From positions 1-42,225 of IMG/VR virus record IMGVR_UViG_3300012936_000042: a stretch of 42,225 bases of DNA; one strand, 5' to 3'. The notes below the pieces were generated by a model. It was not told the DNA's origin, did not search any database, and worked only from the letters and a program-made list of their open reading frames with translations. Positions 7,481 through 29,779 of the stretch are shown here, one piece after another. The position numbers and the translations under genes are program-made. The stretch's first letter is position 1, and the number at the start of each line of letters is the position of its first letter. Source of the DNA: a virus.

Positions 7481-7500
7481 TGTTGCTCCTCGTGCTTATG

Positions 7501-7509
7501 TTATTTATC
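7501..7509 (-). promoter_or_regulatory. T4-late-like promoter box before the 513-residue fibre gene
   Basis: On the minus strand the sequence GATAAATAA matches the T4 late consensus TATAAATA in seven of eight positions. It sits in the gap between two fibre genes, about 20 bases before the ATG. A start 6-7 bases downstream would leave the GAGGAG ribosome binding site intact. The sigma factor that would read it (gp55) is encoded in this window. Confidence 0.55.
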
Positions 7510-7510
7510 G

Positions 7511-9463: not shown

Positions 9464-11475
9464 TAAGTTACTCCGTGATATATAATAAAGTTCAATGCAA
9501 CAAATGGATTTACAATATCTAAGGCATCATTTGCTAAGTTGACTAAGCCTCCTGAGGTCCTAAGTCTTGAACCTGTACCTGATGCATCACCATCACCTGA
9601 TATAGTTTCTGGAGCTGTTGTAGTTGCAGTTGTTGTGGCGTAAAACTGTTCGCCAGTACTACTTTTTAAATCATGTTCGTGTTCAGGCAAATGTCTTTCT
9701 TCTAATGTTGTATTTTCAGAACCGCTTACTCCACCCATTGTAGCAAGCGAAGCATTTGATATTCTATTTGATCCACCGGGTAGACCTATACCTGCTGGCA
9801 TACGTCCACGCATGTCTGGTATTTTAAATAATGTATTTGGATCACTAGACGTGCCATGATAATATGTAGTTGGATCTGCTGGATCGTATCCTAGTGCAGT
9901 AGCCAGTGTGCCGTACACAGATACTGCTTTTTCTGATCCGTCTAATATAAACCAACCTGTTGGAGCAGTTATGCCGCCAAACATAATAATCGTTCCAACT
10001 GGCATTGTATCAATACTACCAATAATATCATTAGGTGTTGCAGATTTCAAAGTGCCACTTTGATTAATCAGTAATGTATCGGTTGTTCTGTTAACAGTTG
10101 TGGCCGCTGTTCTATTTGAAATTATCTCAGGTTGTGCAACCATGTTAAAAGTTTTTGTGCTACCACCTGTCTGTCCATCAAAAGTTTGTGCTACTGATGT
10201 CATTTCTCCAGTAATACTAAATGTTGTCACACTGTTTAACTTTGCTGTGCTTCCAGCTGTGCCACTAACATTACCAGTTACATCACCTGTTAAGTTTCCT
10301 GTAATCCTATTTGCATGTAGTGTATCGTATGGTAATACACTAGACCCTATATTTCTAACACCGCCAGTGTCTGGCAAAATATTTGTACTTGTTATATTTC
10401 CATCTAATACAAAACTACCGCCAATGTTTAAGTTTTTAGTTATTCCTACACCACCTGCTACAATCAAAGAACCTGTAGTTGCATTGTTACTTTCTGTAGT
10501 GCCATTTACAGTTATATTGCTATCTGTTTTAATATTGCCTACAACGTCTAAACTTTCAGTTGGAGATAAGTTGTTGATACCTACATTTGTGTTACTCTTA
10601 ATTCTAATAGGAACAGTAAAAGTACCAGCATTGTTTATTCTTAGATCAATAGGTGCACCTGGAACATTATTTTCAATAATGCCATTAGCGCCTTCAACAA
10701 TCATACTCATTGTTTTATTGATTCCTACTTCAATGCCTTCGTTACTTTTGATTTGCATTTTTTCGCCAACTTGATTGACTATGTTGTTACGCATAAATGC
10801 TGAACTAGGAATAGTACCACCACTTATAAGTAAGTTTTCAGCTGTTGTTGCTGTGCCATTAAATTTAGCAGTTGTAAGTGATGTGTTAAAATTTACACCT
10901 ACTTTTATAGGTGTACTGCTATTATAACCTGCAAAGGTTGTTTTAGGCGCAAACTCCACTCTACTAATAATAGTAACTGGTATATTATCTACATAACCTA
11001 TTATAACTGTTCTACTTACATCACCTGTATCTATTATTTCTTCTACTAGTGTTCCGCTTTTGTTTCCATCACTAAATTCAGGTCCTACTAAAAGCCAACC
11101 ACTTCCAGTATATAGATAAAGTTGACTTGTGCTTGTGTTTACCCACAAATCTCCTTTAACGCTATTTGTACTTGCTGGTTCACTTGTACCTTTTTTTAGT
11201 CCGCCTGCGGCCACCCAGTTTGTTCCATCGTATATTTTAAGTTGATCTACACTATCTGTAGTGTCATACCATAACTGTCCTTCGACAGGATTTGATGGAG
11301 GATTAACGTTAGCAAAGTTTTCTAATAGATGTAAAAAGTTTTGATTAATACTTGTGCCATAATCTGATAGTAATCTACCAGGTAACTTAACACTTGTTTC
11401 TGTGTTGATACTATTATCTTCAACATTAATAGTACCCTTGTTAGCTTGATCTGTAAACGGAATATTGTATGCCAT
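9463..11475 (-). CDS. Tail fibre protein with C-terminal phage tail collar domain
   Basis: A 670-residue protein. The first ~135 residues are the shared module (MAYNIPFTD, SVKLPGRLLSDYGT, NQNFLHLLENF, GQLWYDTTD, GDLWVNTS, WLLVGPEF). The middle consists of beta-repeat segments like those of T4 long fibres. From about residue 490, MPVGTIIMFGGITAPTGW followed by FILDGSEKAVSVYGTLATAL is the hallmark of the phage tail collar domain, as in the T4 short tail fibre gp12. HLPEHEHDL near residue 600 is the His-rich region that often follows it. The start lies in a TAATG overlap with the upstream 200-residue gene, with GGAGG about 9 bases before. It is a good candidate for the receptor-binding or baseplate-anchoring short fibre. 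Confidence 0.8.
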   Translation of the reverse strand: MAYNIPFTDQANKGTINVEDNSINTETSVKLPGRLLSDYGTSINQNFLHLLENFANVNPPSNPVEGQLWYDTTDSVDQLKIYDGTNWVAAGGLKKGTSEPASTNSVKGDLWVNTSTSQLYLYTGSGWLLVGPEFSDGNKSGTLVEEIIDTGDVSRTVIIGYVDNIPVTIISRVEFAPKTTFAGYNSSTPIKVGVNFNTSLTTAKFNGTATTAENLLISGGTIPSSAFMRNNIVNQVGEKMQIKSNEGIEVGINKTMSMIVEGANGIIENNVPGAPIDLRINNAGTFTVPIRIKSNTNVGINNLSPTESLDVVGNIKTDSNITVNGTTESNNATTGSLIVAGGVGITKNLNIGGSFVLDGNITSTNILPDTGGVRNIGSSVLPYDTLHANRITGNLTGDVTGNVSGTAGSTAKLNSVTTFSITGEMTSVAQTFDGQTGGSTKTFNMVAQPEIISNRTAATTVNRTTDTLLINQSGTLKSATPNDIIGSIDTMPVGTIIMFGGITAPTGWFILDGSEKAVSVYGTLATALGYDPADPTTYYHGTSSDPNTLFKIPDMRGRMPAGIGLPGGSNRISNASLATMGGVSGSENTTLEERHLPEHEHDLKSSTGEQFYATTTATTTAPETISGDGDASGTGSRLRTSGGLVNLANDALDIVNPFVALNFIIYHGVT

Positions 11476-12077
11476 TAGCTGTTTCCTCCGCTAAGGCTTT
11501 GTACTCTAACTGTATAGTCTATTTGTATTAAACGGTTTAGTGATTTTTGAACAGGATGGAATATAACATGTGTAAGTAATCTACCAGTACCAGTAGACGC
11601 ATAACCAACTAATCCTAGCTCGTCAAATACAAACTGTTGTTCAGTATCTGCCGCAGTATCAAAAGCATCTTGTCCTTCTGGTTCTCCGTAATCTAATAAA
11701 CAACTTACAACTATGTCAGTATAGTTTACACCTGTGACATGCCTTGTTTCTATTTTATTTCGTTGTGGGTCAACGTTGTTAACGCTTCTGTCATCAACAA
11801 CCTTTGTATATGTTTGATTGTACAAACTTGCATTTGTACCAGTGCTATTTGGGGTTAGGTATGTGATAATACCTGTAGGATCAACACTAGTTCCGCCATT
11901 ACCGAAAGCCATTTCATATATATAACCTTGACCAGAGTTGCCTAAACTTTCTGCAAGACTTATGCTCATGTTTTCGTAATGAATAGCGTTGCGTTTATTC
12001 ACAAATACATGTCCAGACTCTGGATTATGTATTTTTATGTGTCCTTCTATGTGTACTCCACTTTGTTCATTTATCAT
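11475..12077 (-). CDS. Virion structural protein, 200 residues, between giant protein and fibres
   Basis: A conserved-looking protein in the tail block. Segments include MINEQSGVHIEGHIKIHNPE, NAIHYENMSISLAESLGN, YEMAFGNGGTSVD, DIVVSCLLDYGEPEGQDAFD and the C-terminal THVIFHPVQKSLNRLIQIDY. From memory similar proteins occur in T4-like marine phages next to fibre genes, with no known function. Beta-rich, no signal peptide, no catalytic motif. The first of the fibre-region genes behind the late-like box at 12100-12108, and translationally coupled to the collar fibre downstream (TAATG). It may be a baseplate adaptor for the three fibres, in the manner of T4 gp9, gp10 or gp11, but no sequence match to those was recognised. 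Confidence 0.7.
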   Translation of the reverse strand: MINEQSGVHIEGHIKIHNPESGHVFVNKRNAIHYENMSISLAESLGNSGQGYIYEMAFGNGGTSVDPTGIITYLTPNSTGTNASLYNQTYTKVVDDRSVNNVDPQRNKIETRHVTGVNYTDIVVSCLLDYGEPEGQDAFDTAADTEQQFVFDELGLVGYASTGTGRLLTHVIFHPVQKSLNRLIQIDYTVRVQSLSGGNS

Positions 12078-12099: not shown

Positions 12100-12108
12100 G
12101 TATTTATC
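12100..12108 (-). promoter_or_regulatory. T4-late-like promoter box before the fibre genes
   Basis: The minus-strand sequence GATAAATAC matches TATAAATA in seven of eight positions. It overlaps the TAA stop codon of the giant gene. It ends about 22 bases before the ATG of the 200-residue protein, with GGAA as the nearest ribosome binding element. Position and sequence fit a late promoter that lets fibre genes be made independently of the 13.7 kb gene upstream. Confidence 0.55.
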
Positions 12109-15100
12109 GGGGTAGCGATATTGTTTTGTCTGTTATAAACCTAGCTATTTCATTATTACTATTAGCAAGTGCTTTGCCTGTATCATTCCAAATTTTGCCT
12201 GTTTTACGTATAACTTTTACCAATGTTCCGTCTGCAGGTGGGTCAATATAATCAGCTAAATTGATTACTGTCCTTGTACTAGAACCCCAAACAATATTTT
12301 CTATTGTATATTCAGGTGCTAGTGTTACATCTGCTTCTGGTGAATCCATATCGACTGTTTTGTCAAATGTTACTACATTGTCTTTACGCAATCGTATCCC
12401 GCCAACAAATACATCTATTTCGTTTACACTAGTAGGAACAAAATCTAAAACAAATTGTTTTGTACTTGTATCACCTACAAATGTAGTTGTTGCTATTTCG
12501 TCTTTATAAGGAATAGTTTCTTCTATTCCTTGACCTTGCACTACTGTTCCAGTGGCATATTGTGCCGCTATACCAGTACCTAAAGTGCCTCTTCGTAACT
12601 GCCTTAGAAGATTTCCGTCTACTGTAAAATATTCTATGCGTTCTTTATCTATGAATACTACACCAGGTATACCTAAAGCTCTATTAGGAGTTTGAATACC
12701 TGTTGCATTCTTTAACTGTATTGAAGTATCATAATAGTTTAAAGGTTGTTGTAATTCATATTCATTATCTCTGTTAAGACGTTTATAATGATGTCTGTTT
12801 AACATATCCTTAAATATTCTGTAACCAAACTTAGGAGCAACAGGAGTTCCTGCAAACTGTAATACTTCAACTTTATCATTACTTGTTACTTTTTGTTTAA
12901 GCTGTACGCCATCGCCCGAAGTTGATAGGGTATAATCATTTTGTGATGTTAATAAATCACCATTTTTAAATACCCAAACATAGTTTGCACTAATAGCAGG
13001 TTTTTGTAACTTTATGAATCCTCTACTTAACAAGTTTTTATCTATGTATGCTTGTGTGCCAGCCGGAGCATCAGTTGTATTCCATACAATATCAAAAGCG
13101 TTTCTTTCAAACTCGTTGATATCATGATTGCTAAATGTGTAAATGTTTACTGTTTCCCAATCAGCTGGTGCATCTGTTAATGTTAGTTGCGTTGTTTCAG
13201 AAAGTGTTACGCTGGTAATCTTTGCTATAGTGCTATCATTATCAAAGTTAGCAATAATTTCAGGAGAATCATCAATACTTGCTAGTTGGAATAATTCTCT
13301 AACATAGCCACGTAACTCTATTGTAAGTGTTCCGCTTGATCTTGTAAAACTTTCAACTGTAGCAATAACTACTGTGCTATCATCAGATAATCTAAATTGT
13401 ATATCTTGTCCTTGAACAGGATCATTTACACCATCGCCATTGCCTATAATAACTGTGGTATTTAAAAAGAAATATTCTGCATCACGTATAACAAATATTT
13501 CAAATAAATCTCCTTCAGCGCCTACATTGTTGTTAAGCAGTAATACTCTACCATTTATTGTATCATATAGATAATCTTTTGTATCCATAATTTGATTATT
13601 CAAATAACATACAAAATCAGTATTTCTTAATAATCTGTAATCTTCAAACTGCCATCTATCAATATCATATGCTCTTGCTACTGTCAAAGTGTATGATTTT
13701 CTATATCCTGCATTTAAGAATCTTCCATCGCCTCTTTTTATTAAAATGTTTTGTGCAATAGGTTTTTTGATTGTAGGAAATGCAACGCTATTAATAAATT
13801 TATGTGACTTATTTGTTCCATCACATACAAAAGTATTATCAATAACCATTCGGCTAAACTTACTTACTTCACCATCGTATATTGTATAGTTTACTATATC
13901 GCCAGCGGCTCCTATAGATGGTAGTTCTAATCTAACAAATCCATTATAATCTCTGATACCAAACTCTTGTTGTGATTCTTTGTATGTGCCATTTATAGTT
14001 AAAAATGCACTAAGACCATCTTTCCATGCAATATTCAAATCATAATATGTATTGATACCATCTGCAATAAACTGATCACTATCTACAATGTTTACACCAT
14101 TAACACCTATTGTGGTAATAGACAAGTTTTTGCCTGCCGCTATAGCTGTACTATCTTCTAAACTTATTGTTTTTTCAGACCAGTTGACATTAACGTTTGC
14201 AAGATCTATAACATTGTTATCAAGTTGTATTATTAGTGTTGTGTTATCTTGAGGATAATCTTCAAAATCATATTCAATAGTTGTGCCATCAGTTATATAA
14301 TTTCTAACTGCAATAACACCTGTACCATCTGTATTTCTGTTATAAACTTGTATATCTAATGTATCTAAAACTTGTCCAGGTACTTGCTCTTCCGGTCCTT
14401 TGCTTGTTTTTTCTGTAACAAATCCATCACCGTCAACAACAATATCACTAGCACTTATACCAGATGCAGTTGTATATTCAAAGTTACCGCCTTGCAAGCT
14501 AACATCTAATGCTGTGCTTTGTGCAGAATAGCTACCGTCACTTGTAGATTTTCTTATTATTACTACATCGCCGTCTTTTGTAGTTATAACATTACTGTCT
14601 AAAAATACAGTATTAGTTATATCATCACCTTGTAAAGATACCATTTTTGCATTTGGATTAGTTACAACACTACTACCATCATATGCAGGATCATCTATTC
14701 TAACATTATTTAGATAAACGTTGTAAGTAATACCTGATTCTAATACATTTGCTAATGTTATAATTTGTGTGCTTCCATCTAATATGATAATTTCATCATC
14801 ATAGTTTGTATCAAATGTATCAAAGTTTTGTCCAAATGCTTCTGCATCAAATCCTTCGTTTTCACCAAAGCCAATGCTATCCATTTGCACGCCACCGTAA
14901 TCTACACCATCCATAAGTTGTGCAAGTTCTTTACCTGGCATATTAGTACTTGGTTTATAGAAAAAGTTTATTCTGTCAGAAGCATGTAATAGTGATGCAT
15001 CTTTTTTATACTCTATAACAACACTTGCAAAATTTGCTGGTGCATTGTTTAGTGTAATTTTACCTCTTGTTCTATCATAAGATTTTGTATTATCTAAAAC

Positions 15101-18100
15101 ATTTGTTATAGTATAATCGCTTGATAACTGAACTTCTCCTGCAACAGTAACAGTTACATCAGCACTTCTTGTGCTACTTGGCCATTTCAAACTAAATTCA
15201 GTTGCACCGCCATTACCTGTAAATGTTTCTGTTTCATCTAATGTTGTAAAATAATATGCACCTTGTATTCTATCAAACTTCATTAAAATATGCGAACTTC
15301 TAACAAGGCTGTTTCCTATTTGTGCGTATACAATAGCATCTGTTCCATCTATATCTCTATTTGAAACATCTATAGTAACAGTTGGTGTTGTAAAATATTT
15401 TGCGCCAACAGTATCAACTTCAATATAAGTTATGCTACCGCCGCCAATGTATGCTTTACCAGTTAATGTTGGGCCTCCGCCTCCACTGACTGTAACAACC
15501 GCAGTGTAGTTAAATCCAGAGCCGCCATCGTATATTACAAAATCAGTTATTTCAAAACCGTTGTTCTCTAACCAATGCTTTTGTGGATAAGTTGATGTTG
15601 TGTCATTTATACCTGTTATTTGATTGTTAAAAAACTTTATAGTTTCGCTTATAATCTTACCTTCGTTAGCATCATATCTAGGAGGTAAATCAAAATCAGT
15701 AACACTTGTTTGCGTTGGTTCTAGTTTACCATATGAACTTATGTATTCTCTTACCTTTGTGCTATAAGGTTTTACTTCGTTCACATAGTCTTGATAGTTA
15801 GGTAAGTTATCATTTTGGTATGTAATTTTTTGTTCTAACTCGCCAACGTTATGTTTAGCAACTACAAAACTTGATTTGAAAATCCAATCCAAGTCAACTT
15901 GTTCGCTCATTGCATAACGAATACTTGCAAAGAATAGTTTGTTCCATTCACCTTCTAGTTGGTCAACAAATATATTTTCAATAATAGTTTTTAATATAAT
16001 TTTTATTTCTTCTGTTGGTTCTCTATCATATAATGCCGCATCGTAAATAGAAGCATCAAATCCTACAGTTTTATTTTGATATAATATACTATCAAATGCA
16101 AGAGTTCCGTTTTGACGTCCTATAACTTTGTAGTTGACTGTATAATCTACTTCTGGTTGATTATCAATCTTTTCAAGTAACAGCCAACCGCCAGAACCAA
16201 TAGTTTCTATTTTTACAGTGTTTCCTATTCTATCTTGCAAAGCAGATAATGCATAACTGCCAGGCACTACAAAATCAATACGTGTAAGTGCGTCATATCC
16301 TATAGCGTACCAATCTTTATAACTCCAATATAAATTTACATCGTAATCTTGTACATAAGCTCTAAACCATTCTTGAGTACTTTCTAACCAGTTGTACACT
16401 GCCCAAAATCCGCCTATATCAGAATCGTTTGCAACTAATACACTAAATGGACGGACTATAAGAACAGTATCATCTAAATAGTTTTCACCACCGTTGATTA
16501 TTTCTACACTTGTTACTTGTCCTAAGTTGTTTACAAAAGTTTTAAGTTCAGCACCTGTACCGTTGCCTTCAATAGTGACAGTAGGTCCTTGTCTAATATC
16601 ACCGCTTGTATAGTTGCTATCAATATAACCTCTACCTTTTTCTGTTATAGATACGGCTGTAATAACACCATCAACAATAGTTGGAGTTAGCTTTGCTTGC
16701 TTTACTTTTGCTGTACCTACAAATCTTAATAAATTTTCGCTTTCAATCCTTGTATCGTATCTTCTGCTAAACTTACTTGGTTCAGGATCAACTTGTAGTA
16801 ATGGACTGATATCAAAATCATCTACAATAGTGTATTGACACAAAACACCATTTACTCTTTCAATAACTTGTTTTAATGCTTCTTCTCTGTTTACAAACAT
16901 TGCTTGATTAGGTGTGTTTAAAATACCATATCTATATGCTAAACTTACATCAATATCAGGTAATGGTATATTACGAGAATCATATCCAGCAAGGCTGTCT
17001 ATCCATTTACTTTGTATATCAGCATTTGGTTTGCTTGTTGGTAAACCTTCAACTAAAAGTTCGTACTCGTGATGTATGTTTCTATCTATTGCATTATCTT
17101 GCACATAATAATCAATATGTAAAATAGTATCTGTATCTTTTACAAGATTTTTTATATTATGCAATGCTAGTTTTTTATCATCTAACATTGCAACAAATCT
17201 ATAACCCTGTCCTGCAGGATCTGCAATCAAGTTTGCAACATCTAAACTTGTCAACTTTCTACCGTATGTATCTGGTAATGTTGTTTTACTTTTTACCCAG
17301 TAATAATATACAGGAATAAAAGTGCTAGATACAGCATCATATTTTTTAGACACAACATATCTGTCATCACTATATAAAGATAAGCCACTTATACCATCAG
17401 CTAATCCTTCTGTAGTATCAGCAATATTATCCCATTCACTAGGTGTTAAAGAGCTCTCTACCCATTCATATACATCAACACTAAAACCAGGAATAATTTG
17501 ATTCCAAGTGTTTGATTTAAACTGAATATTTCCTTGATAAGGATTATACCATTTTACTGCTGATAAATCCCACCATAGTTTTCCTACGTTCTGGCTACCC
17601 CAAAGATCTTTGCTTCCTGTTCCTGTAGTGCCTACGTTATATACAGCAGGATCGTAATATAACTTATAATGTAGTTCTTGTTCAGCAGGTCCTGGTATTC
17701 TTCCTTTAATAGGATCAATGTAATCTAAATATGTAATAAGATCTTTTGTTGTATTATCGTATAACCACACGCCTTTAATTTTATCTGTGTTAATATTATT
17801 TTCACCTTGACTGTTTATAGTCCATGCGTTTGCATTTATATCTGCTCTATAATCTACAACAAAACCGTTATTTGTATCAGTTTCTTGTGCAGGTGCTACT
17901 ACATAAAGATGATTTCTTTTTAACACTGAATAAGGATTTCTTGATCCTTTTACATCTTGCACTGTATAAAGTTTTTCAGCATACACAAGTTTTGTTGCTA
18001 ATGTTTCATACACATATACTTGTGCATTATCTATTACTGAATCTATTATATCAGTTGCTTTGTTATCTAACGAAGTTGTATCTCCGTCAAAAGTTGTAAA

Positions 18101-21100
18101 TGCTCTTGTATCTCCGTTTATACTAGACACTGCAAGTTTTTCTGCATCAAAATCTACACGAACTCCAAAGCCAGCATTTCTTTCTCCGTCTGGTGATAAT
18201 AGTGTTTGCTCTAAAGCAAAGGTTCCTGCTGTTGATTTATAAACATATACAGCACCGTTTGCTATTCCGTTAATATCTGATCCACGTGCGCCTATAGCTA
18301 TCTTAGAGCCATCGCTGTTTAGTGATATGCTTGTGCCAAATACTTCGCCATCAACAGGCGAATCAATATTTTGATCAAACACAAATCTATTTTGTACTTT
18401 TCTATATATTGCTATACGTCTTTCATTGAAAGAAACACCTAATGCAGATGCATCCGGATCAAAACCTGGATCGTCAGGAAGATTAAACAAACCAGTTATA
18501 GCAAGAACTTCTCCGTTACTGCTTATATCAAAGTTGCTACCAATATTTGATATTAAATCAAATCCAAAGTTACTGCTATCTTCATCTAACAAATCGCTTG
18601 CATCATCTAATAATGGAGGAACAAAGCCTGCATAGTCAACATATGTACTTAAAACATTCCACTGACTTGAATCAAACGAAGCACCTGCAAACACAGTTGT
18701 ATTTGCTTGATACAGTACTCCTTGATAAAATACTATTTCGTTTTCAATATATTTTGCTATCTCTTGGAACTCACCTTTATACGAAGTATCTTTACTGTAT
18801 TCGTAAGAAGCAACATCGTTTTGTCCTTTGTTATTTAGAAGGTATATTCTTCCATTATAACCAGTGCCTCTTACAAAAAGATTATAGTTGAAATCGCTCG
18901 GAGATACTGATTTTATTGCAATACCAAACTGTTCACCTGCCTTAGGAGCAGAACTCATTATTACATCTTGTAATAAGAAACTCTGATCTATAAGTCTTTT
19001 ATAAACATAGATTACACCTTGGTTTGCATATCCTAAACTACTTCCAGATGGATCAGCTTTTAAGACGTCTGCTATTTCCCAATCTTCGCTATCTAAATTT
19101 ATTGTACTGCTTTCTACAGTGACATCATTTGATGCAGTCCACAGAGTACTTTTTGAACTTACTACATCTCCTGCAATATATGCCTGTGATGGATCTAAGG
19201 CGCCTTTGAAACGTGTTTTAACGTTACTCGCGGCTGGAGCACCAACATACAAATATTGTCCATCATCTGTAATAGAAACAGATGTACCAAATTCCCCTCC
19301 ACTATGATGAGTAGCTAATGGTTCTAATGTTTGTTTTAATGTATAATCTAATGCTTCGCTACTTCTTGTGTAAACATAAACTCTACCATCATCTTTATCA
19401 GGTGTACCTACAACCATTGTTGTGTTGTTAGCACTTACATCAAATGATTTACCAAAATCATAACTTACAGTTTCTGGATTTATAACTTTTTGTTTAAATG
19501 AACGTATAACATTGCTATCGTAAACTCCAAACTTAGAGCCTATGTCATCTACCCACATTCTGTCTTTTAGATCTAAATCATATTGTTTTGTTATTGTGTT
19601 TATATCTTCTGGTGTTGAAACTCTTCTAGATGACAATATTGAAACTATACCTAATGTACTATCTTCTAAATCAATAAAATCAGTACCTATTTCATTATCT
19701 GTAACAATCTCAATACTAGGTTTTAACACTGTAGAATCGCTTGCAATGATTTCATTTTGATTAACGTTTGTAGCTACCCAGAATCCATTTACTTCTACAT
19801 CTATATTATTGAAACCAATAAAATCGCCTTCTGCTAAAGTAATAGGTCTATCAAAGTTTGCCTTAAATCCTAATGCAGTTTTTTCAATACTAATAATACG
19901 CATAGGTGCGACTATGTGTTTATAAACATTCCATGATTGTCCGTCTGCTGTTACCCATATATAACTACCAATATCAACACTTGCAATATCTAAGACTAAC
20001 ATATCATTTACATTTTTAGCCATAAAATCAACTTGGTCAAGTTTGACATAGCCAGCAGTTTTTGAATATTCTTTAGATAATGATTCAGTTGGTAATGATG
20101 AATGTGCGTATCCATCTGGTTCTAAATATACATCTTTTTTAGGAAACTGATAAACTAAATCTGTTCTAGTGTCGTCAACAGTGTTTACAAACTCTACAAG
20201 TTGAGGTTCAATTCTAAACTTGCTTTCATCTAAAATATATTCTACTTCATCAAAACTTGTTGTAGCACCATAACGTCCTACACGCACTGCCCATTCTTCA
20301 TACAGTTCTAAACTATCTTTATCATTTGCACCAAGTTTATCAAATAGTTTTGTTATAGAATTTGAAGTTCCTTTGTCTTGTATAAATCCTTGATAAAACT
20401 TATACTGACTTATATCGTCATTAATAATGTTAGCAAGATATTGCCTTTTTTGATAACCAATTAAATGCTGAGCTAATCTTTGCTGTTCTGTATCAAAGTT
20501 GTCAGTGTCTAAATCGTAGAAATCAGCAAACTGATTTGCTTTATAATCCCAGTTTGGCACAAGTTTACTATCTGGACGTTCAGTTAGTCTACTCCAGTTA
20601 CCATCTTTAAATGTTTCAGTGCCACTATGTGTAAAACGTGCCGCATAATAAAACTCTTTATATTTTACAAGTTCTGCTGTTTTGTAATCTTTATAACTTT
20701 CCCAATCAGTTACTTTTGCATTATCATAGGTAAATCCTGGTATATTTAAACTACCATTCCAGTCATCTGTTCTATACCCTACAACTTTTAATCTTTCTTG
20801 TCTATATCCTGTTTCAGGTGCGTATATTGTGTCATTAAAAACAGTTGTATTGTCTATGAGTACAACATGCTCTCTTTGTACTAAAGGCAAGTTTACAAAA
20901 TATATTCCATCTTCTGATTGAAGTGTAAAAACATTACCGTTATCTCTATATATGTTACTCACAGCTTTTTTAAGAATATTGCTGTTTTTATCTAACACTG
21001 CAAAGTCATATAAATTTTCATATATGTTGTCAACTGTAAAAAACTTTTGTTCAAACATTATTTTATTTGCACCAGGGCTTAAAGTAAGTGTGCTAGAACT

Positions 21101-24100
21101 TGCCCAGTTTTGTGTTGTCCAAAATAGAAACTCTTTTGATGCTAAGTTCCAATTTTCTAAAGACTCAGTATCTTTGTTGTAAAATTCAAAACTAAAACCA
21201 TACTGTCTCAAACATTCTTGATATCCTAGCATAAAGTCTACTATCGCTTGACTATCAGGTAATATTGTTCCGTAAGTGAGTCTTGTTTTTGCTGTTTGGA
21301 AGTTCTTTCTAAAAAAAGCTCCAGCTCCGCCTGTTTCGGGTAATGCAGGTAAAGGAGTAAACTTTGTTTCGTCAAAGTCTGTAGATGTTCTATGTGTTGT
21401 ATTGACTCTATAATATTTGTTTTGAAACTGTACTATTTTTCCAGCAATAAGTTGTTTGTCTTCTGTCCAGTTAATAAAACTTTCGCTTATTCCACCGACG
21501 TTTATAAAAGGATCGTTTGTAAGTTCAACAGCGGCAAAATACTCAAAGTAAGGTGCTTGTTGATTATATCCACTTACCTTAAAACCATTACTTACTTTTT
21601 CTACAATCACACCGCTATAACTTATTACTTGTTGAGGTGAAGATTTACGTAATATAATATTGTAATTTTCATCAGGTACAAAAACATTTCCTTCATTCAA
21701 AGGTGTTTTACTATCTAGTACAAGTTTTAGTTTTGACTTATCGGCAAAACCAGCAAGTTTAAATCCTAACTTGTTAGTCAATGCTTTTAGATTTTCTGTA
21801 TATTCTGTATATTGTGTTTCTATATTATTTGATATGTAACCTGCAATATAATTAATAAATCCAGACGCAATATTTTGATCAATTCTTGGAAATACTAGGT
21901 TAGCTGTGTTAATACGTTTGTTAGTAGCAGAATAAACAAGATTACCTGCTAAATCTCTTTGTATTCTAGCTCTATCAAAACCAACACCCATTGTGTAAGC
22001 TGGCTTTTGTAAAACAGCCGCAATCATTAATGAGAAAGGATAACCACTACTTCGTCTCCATGCAGATTCTGTTGGTGCTTCATCTCCAAAGACAAAGTTA
22101 TATTTGCTTTGTATTGCATAGCTAAAGTTTGCAACATATCCACTATCTAAAGGCGACAATAAATTTCCAGATGCATCTACAGGAAGATGCAATAGTAAAT
22201 TATGCCTTACATACTTTTTCTTTTTTAATACAGCTTTGTTTGGTTCTCTAACAATACCATCTTGTAAATCTGTCCAAAGAACTAAATTATCTCTTGTATA
22301 TGGTGCTGGACCATAAACAGTTTCCCACCAACTTGGCTTAATACCAAACCCTAACATTTCCCAAGGATGTGTATGTGGTCTATCAGTGTCATATGCTTGT
22401 TTATAGATACCTCTCCAAAAGCCAGGTAAATCATCATTTCTTAGATTTTTGCTTCCTTTGTAGTTGTATGTAAAACTATCGTTTTGATCGATAAATTTAT
22501 TAGTTGTGTAATCGTCTGCTTTTGCAACTTTTGTCCAATCAATAAAATCTTTAATAAGAATATTATCTATTGTATTTTTTGATATTCTTGTGTTTCTATC
22601 TATACCGCCAACAATATCATGGATATCAAAAATATCTGTGTCATACGCTGTTTTTAAATTGTTAAATATTCTTTTTTCAAATTCTAATATTAAATCATCT
22701 CTATAATCATCAAAGGCAAGCATAATACTTCCATCATGTCCCCTTAGAATATTTTGCGATTCTCTATAACTGTTATCGGTTTGTTTTTCTGGCATATAAC
22801 TTGGATACATTCCAATCTTAGTTGGAGTTGGAGGTATAAAACTACCTTCTGTATTTTCATACTCATGTATAACAAGTTTGTCACCAACTGTAAGAGTGGC
22901 TTTGATATCTACAAAACCTGTTCCAGTAAATGTATATTCTGTGTTATGCATCAACTGCTCATCATTAAGATATACATATAACGCTTTATTGCTTATAGTT
23001 GTTTTGTCAAAAATAGCTGATAAGGCGTAAACAGTGATCCTATTATCTAATATTTCATATTCTATTTTTTTACTACCACCAGTACCTGCCATATCTGTGC
23101 TATAAAATGGTGTTTTACTTGTTTTCATAAAGTTCATTGTATTCAAAATATTATCTACATGATCTTTAACTGTTCCATCAAACGAAGATTCAGTTGCATT
23201 TTGTATAAACTGTCTTTTGAACTTTGTGTATTCGTTTGAAGCGTATCTAATCGCTCCAACTATGTTTGCATTTTTATCTGTTAAATGATATAAAGGAATA
23301 TTTACAGGTCCGCTATGCTGGACAAACTTTCTACCAAATCCTTTTACATCTCCTAAATCTCTTAAGTTGCTTATTCCAGGTTGTACACCATCAAATGCAC
23401 TAACTTCTGCTACTAGTCCTTCAACATGATCGTTCACTTCTCCAAGTGTAAACTCTGTAATATTGTTATTAAGAGGATTTCTTTCTAAGTTATGTGGTAT
23501 TTCATAATATCCGTTTGCATTTTTATCTGCAGAACTTAATGTACGTATTACTATAATATCATTTTCTGTAATATCGCTGTTTAGGACAACAACTTTTTGA
23601 TTATTAACATTTTCAAATCTATATTCTTTAAAAGTTAAAAGTTGACTATTCTTATAAACGTGTACTTCTAAATCTGTTAACGCACTACTATTGTCGTACA
23701 CATCAATTGCAAACGAGTTTTGTTTTTCGTTGCCTTGATATTTTCGTACAACATTTTGAGTACTAAACTCAGTAGCTTTTTGCCAAGCATTACAATAAGA
23801 AGTTGTACCGTTATATGTTTTCTGTAAAAAATAAACATCACTTTTGTGTGTCAAAAATGTGTTATTTACTTTGTATTGATATGATCCTGAAAGCAAGTTA
23901 AAATCAAAAACAATATCACCAATGTTAACAAAGTTTTTATATGTAATAGGAAAACCTAATTCAGTATCATTTGTGCCTTCGCCTTCTCTATATGAAAATA
24001 TTTTATTTCCAGCAAAGTCATTAGCAGGATATACTGTTTCATCACCAATGCTATTTCCATCTTTGTCAAATAAATCAAACTTTGGACAAACATTTATAGC

Positions 24101-25825
24101 AGTTTTGTCTTGTGCTTTTTTCCATTCTGTTCCGTTGTAATAATACATACAGCCAGCATTTTTTACACCATTTTTTACTAACACTGTTTCATTCAAAACA
24201 GGTGTTGCATCTTCAGTTTCTGTTAAACTTATTTGTATAGTGTTTGTATGGTTAATAAATTTTACTGTGTATATTTTGCCATTTACCATACTATCAGGAT
24301 CTGCTGTAAATAGAATACGCATACCTTCAACTACATCTATGCCGTCAATATTGTAACCAACTGTACCTTCTATAGTACTAAAAACATCAGTTGTAAAAGT
24401 ATCGACTAAATCAACATTTTGTTTAGCAGTTGTACCATGATTGTATAATCTAATATTTGGTTCAAATTCAATAATAGGACGTTTAGCTCTTGCAGTTTGA
24501 TCTAAGTTTACTGGTTGATTGTTTATTTCTGCTGATTTTTCAATAACTGATTTATGTGTCCATCTGTTATATCTAGCCCATGGATTACGACTTTCATCTC
24601 TTCTGTTAATACAAATATAATCTTTTGTTCCAGCAAAACTACGTGCGTTACTAAAAGGCACTCTATCAAATGCATTTGAATCAAATGGTATTTGTGTATC
24701 TTGTGTAAAAATAGCAGGCACTTCTAAATTTTCTACAGGTACAAGTTGTATAGACTCTCCAACTCCTTCAACATAATACAATCCGGTAGCATAAGATGCC
24801 GGAGTTACGTTACCAATAAAATATACTTTCATTCCGTTTGAAAAATCCCAACCGTTTGAACTTGTATATGTTTTTTTGCCTATTATTTCTTCTTGTACAT
24901 CAATAGCACTATTTTCTTCAACATCAAATATTCTAAAAATACCACTTACATTAATATCGTTTTGGCTTACATAATATAGTATATCCGGAGCATCCATTGG
25001 TACTGTAAATGTTAATGTTCCTTTTTCAATAAATCCTGGTTTTATATAATCGTTAATATCAACAGTTGTATCATTTTGTACTGCATGAGATATTGTAACA
25101 CCTTCATTATATTGTTTGTCTAAGAAGGAGCTGTCTTCTGTGAACACAACATCTGTGCCTCTGTCAGTTGCAAAACACACAGGGTGTCCTAATGTATCTA
25201 CTTCAAAGATATATGTTTGTCCTCTAAAAAGTTTTACACTTTTATTTCTAGTAAGCCCATCTGGAGACATCAAATAACTCACAATGTTATTATCATTAAC
25301 AGTGTTTAAAGTATATGTGCTTTTTACTTGTAAACTTTGTCCTGCTACTGGTATTTCTTGTGGACCGTTTGGTAACCAATAGTATTCTCTAAAGTTTGTA
25401 AACTTATCATAATCAATATGTGGGTTCCATGCATAAAATTCTTGTGCAAACAGTTTATCGTGATTTGTAACATTGCCGCCAAATGCAGTTATTTGTCCTA
25501 ATATATCTAAATAATCTGCATCAAATACTGTGTTATTCAAATTATCATTAATAACAGCAAAAGGCTCTAGTTGATAATCTTGTCTTAGTTTACTGACATC
25601 TTCAACATAGCTATCTTTTATAGTAGTTGCTTTTGCAACTCTACTTCCTACATAACCATTTACTTTTTCAACAACTCCAGGATTTGTAAGTTGATCTAAA
25701 GTGCTTCCCAAAAACTTTTTATTTGGATCGGTTCTAAAATAACGAGGGAGTAATGATGCTGTAGTTTTTTTGTCACTGCTTTTGCCTGGAACAGGATATT
25801 CATTCTGATTATCGTTGTATGCCAT
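12104..25825 (-). CDS. Giant multidomain virion/baseplate protein, 4573 residues, in the gp7 position
   Basis: One open frame of 13.7 kb, about a third of the window. Residues ~195-302 look cupredoxin-like: KSVKLFRGQTYIFEVDTLGH, then LTFTVPMDAPDILYYVSQND and VSGIFRI. Residues ~2135-2570 hold FG-GAP or beta-propeller-like repeats (MVVGTPDKDDGRVYVYTR, GEFGTSVSITDDGQYLYVG, EVFGTSISLNSDGSKIAIGA, NAGFGVRVDFDAEKLAVSS). Residues ~3050-3130 and ~3420-3485 carry 'GxGY...PTVTI' beta repeats (ITAVSITEKGRGY, FVIYDGGSGFNY). From ~3535 to the end, modules of the type 'F-x-G-D/N-G-x-T...F' recur (FTGNGGATEFSLKW, FIADGINTYYDL, FVGDTSTKQFVLDF), closing with FITDKTISLPR. No signal peptide or catalytic site is recognised. 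T4 has gp7 (about 1030 residues) directly after gp6, and this gene starts within the gp6 stop (TAATG). A baseplate wedge or peripheral role is therefore likely but not proven by similarity. Confidence 0.8.
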   Translation of the reverse strand: MAYNDNQNEYPVPGKSSDKKTTASLLPRYFRTDPNKKFLGSTLDQLTNPGVVEKVNGYVGSRVAKATTIKDSYVEDVSKLRQDYQLEPFAVINDNLNNTVFDADYLDILGQITAFGGNVTNHDKLFAQEFYAWNPHIDYDKFTNFREYYWLPNGPQEIPVAGQSLQVKSTYTLNTVNDNNIVSYLMSPDGLTRNKSVKLFRGQTYIFEVDTLGHPVCFATDRGTDVVFTEDSSFLDKQYNEGVTISHAVQNDTTVDINDYIKPGFIEKGTLTFTVPMDAPDILYYVSQNDINVSGIFRIFDVEENSAIDVQEEIIGKKTYTSSNGWDFSNGMKVYFIGNVTPASYATGLYYVEGVGESIQLVPVENLEVPAIFTQDTQIPFDSNAFDRVPFSNARSFAGTKDYICINRRDESRNPWARYNRWTHKSVIEKSAEINNQPVNLDQTARAKRPIIEFEPNIRLYNHGTTAKQNVDLVDTFTTDVFSTIEGTVGYNIDGIDVVEGMRILFTADPDSMVNGKIYTVKFINHTNTIQISLTETEDATPVLNETVLVKNGVKNAGCMYYYNGTEWKKAQDKTAINVCPKFDLFDKDGNSIGDETVYPANDFAGNKIFSYREGEGTNDTELGFPITYKNFVNIGDIVFDFNLLSGSYQYKVNNTFLTHKSDVYFLQKTYNGTTSYCNAWQKATEFSTQNVVRKYQGNEKQNSFAIDVYDNSSALTDLEVHVYKNSQLLTFKEYRFENVNNQKVVVLNSDITENDIIVIRTLSSADKNANGYYEIPHNLERNPLNNNITEFTLGEVNDHVEGLVAEVSAFDGVQPGISNLRDLGDVKGFGRKFVQHSGPVNIPLYHLTDKNANIVGAIRYASNEYTKFKRQFIQNATESSFDGTVKDHVDNILNTMNFMKTSKTPFYSTDMAGTGGSKKIEYEILDNRITVYALSAIFDKTTISNKALYVYLNDEQLMHNTEYTFTGTGFVDIKATLTVGDKLVIHEYENTEGSFIPPTPTKIGMYPSYMPEKQTDNSYRESQNILRGHDGSIMLAFDDYRDDLILEFEKRIFNNLKTAYDTDIFDIHDIVGGIDRNTRISKNTIDNILIKDFIDWTKVAKADDYTTNKFIDQNDSFTYNYKGSKNLRNDDLPGFWRGIYKQAYDTDRPHTHPWEMLGFGIKPSWWETVYGPAPYTRDNLVLWTDLQDGIVREPNKAVLKKKKYVRHNLLLHLPVDASGNLLSPLDSGYVANFSYAIQSKYNFVFGDEAPTESAWRRSSGYPFSLMIAAVLQKPAYTMGVGFDRARIQRDLAGNLVYSATNKRINTANLVFPRIDQNIASGFINYIAGYISNNIETQYTEYTENLKALTNKLGFKLAGFADKSKLKLVLDSKTPLNEGNVFVPDENYNIILRKSSPQQVISYSGVIVEKVSNGFKVSGYNQQAPYFEYFAAVELTNDPFINVGGISESFINWTEDKQLIAGKIVQFQNKYYRVNTTHRTSTDFDETKFTPLPALPETGGAGAFFRKNFQTAKTRLTYGTILPDSQAIVDFMLGYQECLRQYGFSFEFYNKDTESLENWNLASKEFLFWTTQNWASSSTLTLSPGANKIMFEQKFFTVDNIYENLYDFAVLDKNSNILKKAVSNIYRDNGNVFTLQSEDGIYFVNLPLVQREHVVLIDNTTVFNDTIYAPETGYRQERLKVVGYRTDDWNGSLNIPGFTYDNAKVTDWESYKDYKTAELVKYKEFYYAARFTHSGTETFKDGNWSRLTERPDSKLVPNWDYKANQFADFYDLDTDNFDTEQQRLAQHLIGYQKRQYLANIINDDISQYKFYQGFIQDKGTSNSITKLFDKLGANDKDSLELYEEWAVRVGRYGATTSFDEVEYILDESKFRIEPQLVEFVNTVDDTRTDLVYQFPKKDVYLEPDGYAHSSLPTESLSKEYSKTAGYVKLDQVDFMAKNVNDMLVLDIASVDIGSYIWVTADGQSWNVYKHIVAPMRIISIEKTALGFKANFDRPITLAEGDFIGFNNIDVEVNGFWVATNVNQNEIIASDSTVLKPSIEIVTDNEIGTDFIDLEDSTLGIVSILSSRRVSTPEDINTITKQYDLDLKDRMWVDDIGSKFGVYDSNVIRSFKQKVINPETVSYDFGKSFDVSANNTTMVVGTPDKDDGRVYVYTRSSEALDYTLKQTLEPLATHHSGGEFGTSVSITDDGQYLYVGAPAASNVKTRFKGALDPSQAYIAGDVVSSKSTLWTASNDVTVESSTINLDSEDWEIADVLKADPSGSSLGYANQGVIYVYKRLIDQSFLLQDVIMSSAPKAGEQFGIAIKSVSPSDFNYNLFVRGTGYNGRIYLLNNKGQNDVASYEYSKDTSYKGEFQEIAKYIENEIVFYQGVLYQANTTVFAGASFDSSQWNVLSTYVDYAGFVPPLLDDASDLLDEDSSNFGFDLISNIGSNFDISSNGEVLAITGLFNLPDDPGFDPDASALGVSFNERRIAIYRKVQNRFVFDQNIDSPVDGEVFGTSISLNSDGSKIAIGARGSDINGIANGAVYVYKSTAGTFALEQTLLSPDGERNAGFGVRVDFDAEKLAVSSINGDTRAFTTFDGDTTSLDNKATDIIDSVIDNAQVYVYETLATKLVYAEKLYTVQDVKGSRNPYSVLKRNHLYVVAPAQETDTNNGFVVDYRADINANAWTINSQGENNINTDKIKGVWLYDNTTKDLITYLDYIDPIKGRIPGPAEQELHYKLYYDPAVYNVGTTGTGSKDLWGSQNVGKLWWDLSAVKWYNPYQGNIQFKSNTWNQIIPGFSVDVYEWVESSLTPSEWDNIADTTEGLADGISGLSLYSDDRYVVSKKYDAVSSTFIPVYYYWVKSKTTLPDTYGRKLTSLDVANLIADPAGQGYRFVAMLDDKKLALHNIKNLVKDTDTILHIDYYVQDNAIDRNIHHEYELLVEGLPTSKPNADIQSKWIDSLAGYDSRNIPLPDIDVSLAYRYGILNTPNQAMFVNREEALKQVIERVNGVLCQYTIVDDFDISPLLQVDPEPSKFSRRYDTRIESENLLRFVGTAKVKQAKLTPTIVDGVITAVSITEKGRGYIDSNYTSGDIRQGPTVTIEGNGTGAELKTFVNNLGQVTSVEIINGGENYLDDTVLIVRPFSVLVANDSDIGGFWAVYNWLESTQEWFRAYVQDYDVNLYWSYKDWYAIGYDALTRIDFVVPGSYALSALQDRIGNTVKIETIGSGGWLLLEKIDNQPEVDYTVNYKVIGRQNGTLAFDSILYQNKTVGFDASIYDAALYDREPTEEIKIILKTIIENIFVDQLEGEWNKLFFASIRYAMSEQVDLDWIFKSSFVVAKHNVGELEQKITYQNDNLPNYQDYVNEVKPYSTKVREYISSYGKLEPTQTSVTDFDLPPRYDANEGKIISETIKFFNNQITGINDTTSTYPQKHWLENNGFEITDFVIYDGGSGFNYTAVVTVSGGGGPTLTGKAYIGGGSITYIEVDTVGAKYFTTPTVTIDVSNRDIDGTDAIVYAQIGNSLVRSSHILMKFDRIQGAYYFTTLDETETFTGNGGATEFSLKWPSSTRSADVTVTVAGEVQLSSDYTITNVLDNTKSYDRTRGKITLNNAPANFASVVIEYKKDASLLHASDRINFFYKPSTNMPGKELAQLMDGVDYGGVQMDSIGFGENEGFDAEAFGQNFDTFDTNYDDEIIILDGSTQIITLANVLESGITYNVYLNNVRIDDPAYDGSSVVTNPNAKMVSLQGDDITNTVFLDSNVITTKDGDVVIIRKSTSDGSYSAQSTALDVSLQGGNFEYTTASGISASDIVVDGDGFVTEKTSKGPEEQVPGQVLDTLDIQVYNRNTDGTGVIAVRNYITDGTTIEYDFEDYPQDNTTLIIQLDNNVIDLANVNVNWSEKTISLEDSTAIAAGKNLSITTIGVNGVNIVDSDQFIADGINTYYDLNIAWKDGLSAFLTINGTYKESQQEFGIRDYNGFVRLELPSIGAAGDIVNYTIYDGEVSKFSRMVIDNTFVCDGTNKSHKFINSVAFPTIKKPIAQNILIKRGDGRFLNAGYRKSYTLTVARAYDIDRWQFEDYRLLRNTDFVCYLNNQIMDTKDYLYDTINGRVLLLNNNVGAEGDLFEIFVIRDAEYFFLNTTVIIGNGDGVNDPVQGQDIQFRLSDDSTVVIATVESFTRSSGTLTIELRGYVRELFQLASIDDSPEIIANFDNDSTIAKITSVTLSETTQLTLTDAPADWETVNIYTFSNHDINEFERNAFDIVWNTTDAPAGTQAYIDKNLLSRGFIKLQKPAISANYVWVFKNGDLLTSQNDYTLSTSGDGVQLKQKVTSNDKVEVLQFAGTPVAPKFGYRIFKDMLNRHHYKRLNRDNEYELQQPLNYYDTSIQLKNATGIQTPNRALGIPGVVFIDKERIEYFTVDGNLLRQLRRGTLGTGIAAQYATGTVVQGQGIEETIPYKDEIATTTFVGDTSTKQFVLDFVPTSVNEIDVFVGGIRLRKDNVVTFDKTVDMDSPEADVTLAPEYTIENIVWGSSTRTVINLADYIDPPADGTLVKVIRKTGKIWNDTGKALANSNNEIARFITDKTISLPR

Positions 25826-28800
25826 TAGTAGCTATTTCCTTCTATGACAGTTGTATTTGATGTTGTTGTGCTTTGTATTCCAGTGTTAGGAACATCATCA
25901 CTTGTTATTACTTTTCCTGATGCTTTTAATCTTGAAGCTGTAATACTATCTATTACTTCAACTTCACCAACCTGTGCTGAACTAACAAATATTTCGTCAT
26001 TTTCGCTTTTGATTTCATATAAGCTACCAAAACTTTGTGTTTCAGTTTTTGGAACTAACACAATACTGCTAATGTCAGGTGCAACTTGTTTCATAATATA
26101 AGCCGCTAGTTCGCTGAAATAAAATGTTTCGCCAAAATCCCAGTTTTCAAGTGCAAAAAATTCATTAATACTATCAATAACTCTTGACTTTATATCATTA
26201 TCATTTACAACTCTAGAAGCATTTTTAACGATTTTAATCGTAGCTTGTAAATCATTATCAGCATACGCACCAAACAATGGCTTATACTTAACAGGATGAT
26301 ATATAACTTCATCACTAATAGATTTTATTGCTTTGATAGATTGTCCGTAATCTAAAAATAGTGCATCACTGCTAGGTGGCAATGGTTGTACTGTAATATC
26401 ACCCTTGAGCCATTTTCTATATTCAATGTCATAGGTTTTTGTAAGAAGATATAGATCAATAATATTACTGCTACTAGGATCTATTCGTCTATTTTCAGCC
26501 GCGGCGTGTCTATAATCAAATCTAATCTTATCACGCCCTTTATATGCTTTATAATTTGTATTCAAAACTAATGCAGTTTTTGTGCTATTCAAAGATTTAA
26601 ACTTATTAGTGCTACTAATGTAAAATACGCAATCGCTATCATAGGCGCTATATGCTCCTATTGCGGCTTCTGTATTCTTTACTTCTATTTTTTCAGCATC
26701 TGCTTCAACATATTCATATGTTACTGTGTTGCTTCTAGTAAACTTTTTTGCAAAAATATATTTGGTATCTGGTAAGTAATCCGGATCAACAATCTGTGTG
26801 AACAAATCAGGATCATCTATAACACCATCGTTATCTACATCAGTAAAACTTATTTCAAGTTTTTTACTATCTACATATCCTTCTGATGTTCTATATTCAG
26901 AAACAACTTGCCATTGCCAATCTTTCTGAAATGGTGTTAATGTATCAGGCTTATTATTGTTGCTTAAAACGCCTATTGTGTCTGTAACAATCTTTCCTGT
27001 TTTACTATCGTATATTCTATCATTTCCATCAAAGTAAAAACGTATTTGTTTATCACTTTCAAATACATATCTTACTGCACGATAAGTGACTGTATATGTT
27101 TCGCCATCAGTTTCAAATAAGAAAATCCAACTTGCGTCTTGATTTGTTCCTGTTACATCGCCTGTTTTTGCAGTATCAAAATTATTAACTTTATCTAAGT
27201 TACTATTAAGTATTACTTTCCAGTCTGTTGTTTCAACATCGTATCGTAAACCAAATGTTCTGTACGCAAAAACTTGATCAACCATTTGTGATAAAGTATC
27301 ATTGACAATGTTATTATTCAAAACAGGAATAATTTCACACAAATAAGCTGTGCTTGGAATATTGTCATTAAAAACTATTGGACCTAACGTGCTTCCAACT
27401 TCTGCTGTAGTACCGTCTTCGTATATACTAATAACTTTAGTCCAAATATACTCTTTGTCACCTAGTGCTGATGGTGTTCCAGTTTTTATTGTGTTATCTT
27501 TATCAAAATATTTTCCTGTTGGTGCTTTAAATTTTACTAAACTGCCTGCTGTCATAAAACGCAATGCTGTAGCTGTAAACGTTCCAACAGCAATAGCAAT
27601 ATCAAACTGGTCTTGTAATATACCTGTGCTTTGATTTGTATCATTTGTTGTGGCTACCCATTCATAATTTAAATCCGCAACACTTGTATTTCTATCAAAG
27701 TTTTTGTAGTAAAAGTTTTTGGTTTGTATTCCTTTAATAACTTCTAAAACTTGTGAATTTATTACTGCTTCAATATCAGTCTTACTTGAAAAAGAAAAAC
27801 TAAACTTACCTAGTAAATCTTCTGTAAAAACACTACCGTCATCTCCAAACATAAGTGTATTGCTGTACTTTCCAGTGCTATCACGTAAATCATAATACCT
27901 ACTAATACCACTACTTGTTCTATTGACGCTTTTTGTTTTTATAATTTGTTGATTTACACCAAGTGGACCAATGTTATAATCTTCACCTGTTATAAGTCTG
28001 TTTTGTGTATAATATGTACTAGGTGCATTTGTTTGAATGCTTTCGTTTGATTCTGCACTATCTGCATTAGATACTATACTTGTAAGTTCCAATATAAGAT
28101 TTAGTGTTTCTAATGTATTATTTTTACTAATATATGGTATAGATATGCTTATGCCTTGCATGTCTGCTGGCTTGATGCTGTATTGTTCATTGGCACTTAC
28201 TCTATAATAAACTTTAAAGTCTCCTTTTGGAAGAGTGCCAAAAGTACCGTCACTAAAAATCAAACTTATTCTATCATTTACTCTGCTTAACACACTATAA
28301 ATGTCTGTTATACCTTTAGAAACGTTATTGTAAACAATATTATTGCCTTCTGTGCTGTTAACCGAAGTCCACAATGCTTCTTCGTTACCATTGCTATCTA
28401 GTTTATACAACCAAACATCTGTATTGTTAATATTATCACTATCAATGTTTACAGTTGTATTTGGAACAGGATTAGCAACACTAAATGTGTTGTTCTCTAA
28501 TGTACCTTGTCTAAAATGAAAGAAAAATCCACTATTTGAACTACCTGCACCTTGTCCATTGTCTCTATATAAAAACGCTAATCTATTTCCTGGATAAGGT
28601 TCTTCTTCAAATATTGTATTGTTTTCAATATTAATACCTGTACTCACTATTTCAAATTTACGTGATGCATCGTCTATAGACTTAGTAAAAGAATAGATAG
28701 GAACATCTTGATTATTACCATTAAATCTATACTGTTCAGTGGTGATACCATCTACAGTTGCTTTCTTTACAGGTCTACCAAATATGTTGTTAGCAGGTAA

Positions 28801-29329: not shown

Positions 29330-29343
29330 AAAGTGCGTACTTT
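29330..29343 (-). terminator. Weak hairpin plus T-run after gp25
   Basis: Read on the minus strand, AAAGTACGCACTTT can form a 5-base-pair stem with a 4-base loop and runs into a T-tract (TTTTTTTA). It overlaps the gp25 stop codon and precedes the possible late box of gp6. The stem is short and AT-rich, so at best it is a leaky terminator or an mRNA-processing hairpin. Confidence 0.3.
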
Positions 29344-29779
29344 AAATTAGACCATTTGCTTGGTCAAACTTTATACGCATAGATTCGCTTATACTATATG
29401 GAAGATATGTTAGAGTAACATCTATTTGAATGCCACTTTCATATGTGTCTACAGTTACGCTATCTACATTAACTCTTGGGTCAAAGTTTACAATTTCTGT
29501 GACATCTTCAATAATAAGTTGCTTCAAATCATCTGTAAATGGTTCAAATATAATATCCCAGATTATTGTGCCAAACTCTGGATTTTCTAGTTTCTCACCT
29601 TGTCGTATGTGAAAGTGATTTATAATATCTTGCTTTATTATTTGTAGGTCATACAAATTAAAACCTTTAGGATTAGCTACTGTGCTAACACCACGATATT
29701 GTTTACTTGTCACAGGCGGTGAAGTCACTCCATTTGACACTGAAATATTTTTATAAAGTTGTTTTTCATTTACAGCCAT
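29342..29779 (-). CDS. gp25: Baseplate wedge protein gp25
   Basis: A 145-residue protein of the gp25 family (T4 gp25 is 132 residues). It has the family core DLQIIKQDIINHFHIRQGEK, NPEFGTIIWDIIFEP and QLIIEDVTEIVNFDPRV at about residues 44-105. The FEP at the end of the core corresponds to the EPR-type motif of gp25 homologues, used in sheath initiation in contractile tails. The N-terminal 40 residues (VTSPPVTSKQYRGVSTV) are a linker. In the assembled baseplate gp25 joins gp6 and gp53 to form the wedge core and primes sheath assembly. The gene sits between the glycine-rich protein and gp6. GGAG stands 12 bases before the ATG, which is rather far. Confidence 0.92.
   Translation of the reverse strand: MAVNEKQLYKNISVSNGVTSPPVTSKQYRGVSTVANPKGFNLYDLQIIKQDIINHFHIRQGEKLENPEFGTIIWDIIFEPFTDDLKQLIIEDVTEIVNFDPRVNVDSVTVDTYESGIQIDVTLTYLPYSISESMRIKFDQANGLI

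Follow-up and report, generated by a model that had tools for sequence, protein, structure and literature searches.

In bacteriophage T4 the gene that directly follows gp6, and is tightly coupled to it, encodes gp7, a protein of 1,032 amino acids. In the viral DNA analysed here (a stretch of 42,225 bases, hereafter the window) the same place is taken by a likewise tightly coupled gene whose product is more than four times longer and for which no full-length homology to T4 gp7 is detected. The locus thus raises the question of whether this giant protein is a baseplate component related to gp7 or a protein of another kind in the gp7 position.

The giant gene, its neighbours and its relatives

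The giant gene is a single intact frame of 4573 codons, running from ATG to stop with no internal stop codons, and the computed mass and pI of its product are 513 kDa and 4.7. Since aquatic relatives align to it along essentially its whole length at 63-70% identity (among the matches listed) and its junction with gp6 recurs, the frame is real and a chance frame is excluded, in agreement with the unbroken 13.7 kb frame described in the first-pass annotation. The junction sequence agctacTAATGgca contains TAATG, so that the gp6 stop and the giant start share one base, at position 25825; the coupling that had been read from the DNA and the position after gp6 are both borne out, the upstream gene being assigned to gp6 by two protein family profiles (Table 1). 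Among the IMG/VR matches listed, gp6 lies upstream of the giant in all aquatic relatives whose DNA extends there, and the junction is present in every relative locus reaching the upstream DNA, mostly with the identical 1-base overlap. On the minus strand, gp25, gp6 and the giant are preceded, in this order, by a virion protein of 262 aa, a gp53-type protein (phrog_7145), a second virion protein of 776 aa, a gp5-type hub/lysozyme and a protein of 395 aa, and are followed by a 200-aa protein and three fibre-type proteins. RaK2, 121Q, GAP32 and PA5oct have gene orders closely similar to that of the window.

Table 1. Genes of the giant locus and segments of the giant protein, in window positions (residue numbers are those of the giant)
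Feature	Positions	Strand	Basis
gp25-like baseplate wedge subunit	29342..29779	-	phrog_43, phrog_261
gp6-like baseplate wedge subunit of 1154 aa, overlapping giant by TAATG	25825..29289	-	phrog_10646 (E 4e-296), phrog_219
Giant gp7-position virion protein (putative), 4573 aa	12104..25825	-	phrog_10938, 1102 bits
Residues 1-164, N-terminal domain kept in all relatives, isolated jumbo phages among them	25334..25825	-	
Residues 165-310, insert with cupredoxin fold, copper ligands lost	24896..25333	-	AlphaFold2 + Foldseek
Residues 400-1700, conserved backbone, best phrog_10938 region	20726..24628	-	
Residues 1452-1482, weak CBM5/12-like module	21380..21472	-	Pfam E 3.5e-5, 24.2 bits (below the cut-off of 26.2 bits)
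Residues 1709-1747, possible CBM5/12-like module	20585..20701	-	Hits of relatives + slice model
Residues 1751-1880, conserved helical block, holds gp7-core-like 1790-1835	20186..20575	-	
Residues 2085-2700, FG-GAP repeats + weak CBM5/12-like module	17726..19573	-	
Residues 2650-3000, conserved backbone	16826..17878	-	
Residues 3030-3110, beta repeat common to cyanophage/pelagiphage gp7-position proteins	16496..16738	-	
Residues 3150-3360, conserved backbone, DW[VI]FK[TS] motif	15746..16378	-	
Residues 3425-3490, second copy of shared beta repeat	15356..15553	-	
Residues 3950-4275, fast-evolving, frequently absent or replaced	13001..13978	-	
Residues about 4350-4430, C-terminal module	12536..12778	-	
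200-aa partner gene after giant	11475..12077	-	phrog_11259 (unknown function)

The giant is a further member of a catalogued and widespread phage family, encoded by an aquatic relative of RaK2-like giant phages. Four stretches of it match phrog_10938, which PHROGs describes as "virion structural protein" and places in the category head and packaging; the best stretch covers residues 706-1703. A tblastn search with residues 1-1700 as query found matches in 87 phage records, all below 60% identity, including Asteriusvirus 121Q and its kin, RaK2, GAP32, Munch, PA5oct, Atu_ph07, Phosso and SCTP-2. In all ten phage records inspected (Atu_ph07, RaK2, PA5oct, SCTP-2, Phosso, Vibrio 2.275, 121Q, GAP32, XaC1 and Munch) a giant of 3,323-4,555 aa lies directly after gp6. 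The homologues include RaK2 ORF070, 121Q gp582, GAP32 gp230, PA5oct gp355, Atu_ph07 gp180, SCTP-2 gp140 and the Phosso protein, those of RaK2, 121Q and PA5oct being among the ones annotated as virion structural proteins. The RaK2-/PA5oct-like members are thus like the giant in position and in size class (3.3-4.6 thousand residues), and their backbone blocks are 22-37% identical to it. In Salicola phage SCTP-2 the gene in the gp6 position before the giant (locus L005, 6624-15914) encodes a protein of 3,096 aa, roughly three times as long as is usual in the group.

A single-sequence search for relatives of the giant returned only one near-identical fragment and alignment queries were therefore needed; two of these gave at least 594 and at least 554 confirmed matching stretches in IMG/VR. 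Among the matches listed, 153 loci with the giant gene were retained and at least 47 complete copies exceed 3,500 aa, spanning 3,680-6,436 aa. One fragment (L006) covers gp25, gp6 and residues 1-968 of the giant, all at 99-100% identity to the window. No matches were obtained when 21 kb of the window were compared with phages by megablast, or when the giant was compared with PDB sequences by phmmer.

Mass spectrometry of relatives supports the proposal that the giant is a single virion protein. The virion table of phAPEC6 lists gp245, a protein of 381.88 kDa with 17 unique peptides, beside the baseplate wedge protein gp244 (PMC7247149), and that of CBB lists CBB_236, with 21 peptides and 7.7% coverage, beside the baseplate wedge protein CBB_237 (PMC5259590); gp245 was assigned to the giant family by table position and size, and CBB_236 by table position. 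In the PA5oct record, the gene homologous to the giant is annotated with the note 'ESI-MS/MS'. Absence from virions had been set beforehand as the finding that would count against the first-pass proposal, and the opposite is seen in these relatives (PMC7247149, PMC5259590). The virion-proteome papers assign no function to gp245 or CBB_236 (PMC7247149, PMC5259590), and we found no published functional role for the gp6-adjacent giant family in the literature.

Backbone blocks and inserted modules

When the giant is compared with its counterparts in isolated jumbo phages, conserved backbone blocks (residues about 26-150, 400-1700, 1750-1880, 2700-2990 and 3150-3360) can be told apart from inserts. 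The backbone is broken up by lineage-specific modules, namely a cupredoxin fold, FG-GAP repeats, CBM5/12-like modules and other beta modules. The branch to which the giant belongs differs from the isolated jumbo phages in having the cupredoxin-fold insert and the FG-GAP region, at which places the latter have nothing or other sequence. The earlier description of surface-type modules in an otherwise structural protein therefore holds, with the weak CBM5/12-like modules, which had been overlooked, now added to it.

The cupredoxin-like N-terminal domain proposed from the sequence was recovered by structure prediction: the best 50 PDB hits of the AlphaFold2 model of residues 165-310 in Foldseek are all cupredoxins (E 2e-5 to 9e-5). 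Almost all aquatic relatives (among the matches listed) have the insert, and isolated jumbo phages lack it. The Cys, His and Met positions of the type-1 copper ligands (H...C..H..M) are lost in the giant and in its aquatic relatives, and no YYxCxxHxxM motif was found in the set of full-length relatives. A copper or redox function of the domain was rejected on this ground, and because of the loss of the ligand positions its role is likely structural rather than redox. Cupredoxin-like motifs also occur in the giant of cyanophage S-CAM1 and in the gene that follows the giant of P-TIM68. The YYxCxxHxxM motif is retained in the S-CAM1 gp6-adjacent protein (L215, residue 1463) and in the protein encoded at 15789-18233 of L214 (residue 795).

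The FG-GAP-like repeats that had been noticed in the middle of the protein are supported by a match to FG-GAP_2 (Pfam E 6e-17) in four stretches. The region that contains them is a hot spot of insertion. In Atu_ph07 and Phosso some 1,500 residues of other sequence take its place, and in the longest aquatic copies it is extended by between a few hundred and about 1,100 residues. A second weak CBM5/12-like match lies within it, at residues 2356-2380. At residues 1709-1747 the giant itself gives no Pfam hit, and 23 of 100 relatives have a hit somewhere within the slice 1505-1990. A model of this slice gave mostly short chitin-binding-domain matches (E >0.1) and no convincing wedge protein when compared with the PDB by Foldseek; in BFVD it matched uncharacterised relatives, some of them named "YHYH domain-containing protein", and an Atu_ph07 structural protein.

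The repeated beta modules reported near the end of the protein are found as two copies of one repeat and a further C-terminal module (Table 1). Further copies of the repeat are numerous in the gp7-position proteins of cyanophages and pelagiphages, with E down to 1e-20 against 0.001 for the best reversed control, and the C-terminal module is also found near the N-terminus of the gp7-position proteins of S-RIM44 and ACG-2014e.

Relation to T4 gp7 and to the marine gp7-position proteins

Giant proteins next to gp6 are also known from cyanophages, and include a 6,395-aa protein annotated gp7 in S-RIM8, a 4,307-aa protein annotated wedge initiator in P-TIM68 and a 3,032-aa protein annotated structural protein in S-CAM1. 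The giants of these T4-like cyanophages and of ACG-2014e are likewise modular and directly follow gp25-gp6; they have the beta repeat in common with the giant of the window, and some also have the C-terminal-type module. Because the giant belongs to a catalogued family with mass spectrometric support and gp6-adjacent giants are established in cyanophages, the novelty that the first-pass annotation had implied does not hold. Profile hits to a family already described were among the findings that the annotation itself had named as refuting it, and the match to phrog_10938 is such a hit.

The domain formed by T4 gp7 residues 641-800 clearly recurs close to the N-terminus of the marine gp7-position proteins (98.6%, E 1e-15). 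The marine profile that gives this match includes HTVC008M gp55 (L018, 33435-36485), which is annotated as head closure Hc2. In the cyanophage giants a gp7 core can be recognised close to the N-terminus, whereas the family of the giant has only a suggestive one, at residues 1790-1835. Profile comparison of the whole family detected no full-length similarity to T4 gp7 (phrog_964 / gp7 profile) and no match to HTVC008M gp54-gp62. Residues 1-165 were considered as a candidate gp7 core and rejected, since they gave no profile match to the marine/T4 gp7 domain. When 36 overlapping segments of the giant family were scanned against the gp7 core, only the two segments that cover 1790-1835 stood out, with profile probabilities of 34% and 38% (E 3-4e-4); the other forward segments gave at most 2% and reversed controls at most 4.5%. 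As a yardstick, the same program gives 16% for a sure pair, the gp6 of the window and T4 gp6, the latter entered as a single sequence. The gp7-core-like residues lie within a block kept in all relatives, in a register consistent with T4 and marine gp7. On single sequences, an HMM of the KGT half of the core gave a best forward E of 0.37, which is not significant and is bettered by one reversed control (E 0.07); its top forward matches cluster at 1808-1828. The other ORFs of the window have no significant gp7-core match. The helices of the gp7-core-like block have low AlphaFold2 confidence, which would be expected if they fold only with partners and also if the model is poor. Homology of residues 1790-1835 to the gp7 core is thus suggestive. 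To our knowledge, T4 gp7 has no cupredoxin or FG-GAP modules. The giant and T4 gp7 probably occupy the same wedge slot.

Evolutionary rate and the possible role of the giant

In the two closest relatives with downstream genes (among the matches listed), identity to the window is 69-70% for the giant, 80% for gp6, 94-95% for the 200-aa partner and about 50-57% for the three fibre-type proteins, the last values being approximate as they pool overlapping alignment pieces of paralogues. Of the proteins compared, the 200-aa protein evolves most slowly; several jumbo phages also encode a protein of about 198-201 aa at the giant or directly behind it. Judged by these identities, the giant evolves at a rate nearer to that of gp6 than to that of the fibre proteins. 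Within it, the sequence changes faster in parts of the cupredoxin insert, in the FG-GAP region (within 2000-2700) and at residues 3900-4000. Evolution faster than that of the wedge and like that of fibres, which would characterise an adhesin, is not seen in the giant, where fast stretches are local only. The gp6-like rate therefore favours a scaffold with exchangeable surface modules, with which weak binding would still be compatible, over a dedicated receptor-binding protein.

We consider that the giant is a baseplate wedge or baseplate periphery protein in the gp7 position of a RaK2/PA5oct-type member of the T4 superfamily, with a probability of roughly 0.6. This reading is based on the conserved gp25-gp6-giant order, the relatives found in virions, the match to phrog_10938, the cyanophage parallels, the gp7-core-like residues, the shared beta repeats and the rate of evolution. 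The lack of full-length gp7 similarity, the shortness of the gp7-core match and its non-significance on single sequences, the low confidence of the modelled helices, the 'head and packaging' category and the lack of a Foldseek wedge match count against it. An unrelated giant without a gp7-derived core may instead have taken the gp7 slot, which we regard as possible at clearly less than even odds: similarity to gp7 never rises above the suggestive level, over the full length or by domain, and the beta repeats, as mobile modules, prove sharing and not orthology. Such a replacement is harder to reconcile with the fact that the sole gp7-core-like segment falls in a universally conserved block and in the register of T4 and marine gp7, and the low score of the gp6 pair speaks against it as well.

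The FG-GAP and weak CBM5/12-like modules, their insertion and swapping at hot spots and the faster-evolving stretches within 2000-2700 and near 3950-4275 could also suggest a giant peripheral adhesin or receptor-binding protein that serves chiefly for host contact. We hold this to be improbable, since conservation of the whole protein is nearer to gp6 than to the fibres and immediately downstream there are distinct fibre genes with a tail-collar-type match. For the wedge-adhesin fusion that had been envisaged, the analysis gives no gp7 homology over the full length, one suggestive match to the gp7 core and a rate nearer to that of gp6 than to that of the fibres. A component of hair-like tail whiskers or head fibres is very unlikely. 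The PHROGs category would fit it, and the whiskers of CBB and the filaments of phAPEC6 have no assigned gene (PMC5259590, PMC7247149), but the authors of the CBB study expect whisker genes to be absent from GAP32 (PMC5259590), which encodes a giant, and the giant gene lies between gp6 and baseplate/fibre genes.

If the giant is a wedge or periphery protein, about six copies of it would bind gp6 through backbone domains, as do the six gp7 monomers of the T4 baseplate, which are bound to gp6 (PMC3004832). The contact may involve a diverged gp7 core within the helical block of residues 1751-1880. The giant would scaffold the rim of the baseplate and so provide the docking site for the fibre proteins encoded downstream. 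Its inserted modules would form the outer surface of the giant and may make weak contacts with the cell surface, and specific host recognition would be left to the fibres. A bolder and rather unlikely version is that the giant is a true gp7 with its core split and swollen by inserts, for which S-RIM8, where the core halves lie at residues 5-33 and 670-780, provides a precedent; one 513-kDa chain would then replace gp7 and parts of the gp8-gp11 rim, and six chains would make a 3-MDa skirt around the baseplate.

Giants next to gp6 are widespread in aquatic phages of the T4 superfamily and in jumbo phages. If their backbone is a wedge component and the rest exchangeable surface, this would explain how large baseplates are built and where new surface modules enter. 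The published view that pelagimyophages lack gp7 (PMC7029224) would be affected as well.

Three consecutive fibre-type proteins encoded at 5939-11475 have a common N-terminal domain with a GQLWYD/GQVWYD motif and look like paralogues with different tips. By eye, the product of 40010-41662 resembles a flavin-dependent tryptophan halogenase, an unusual cargo for a phage, and several proteins of the left end (301-3437) resemble glycosyltransferases.
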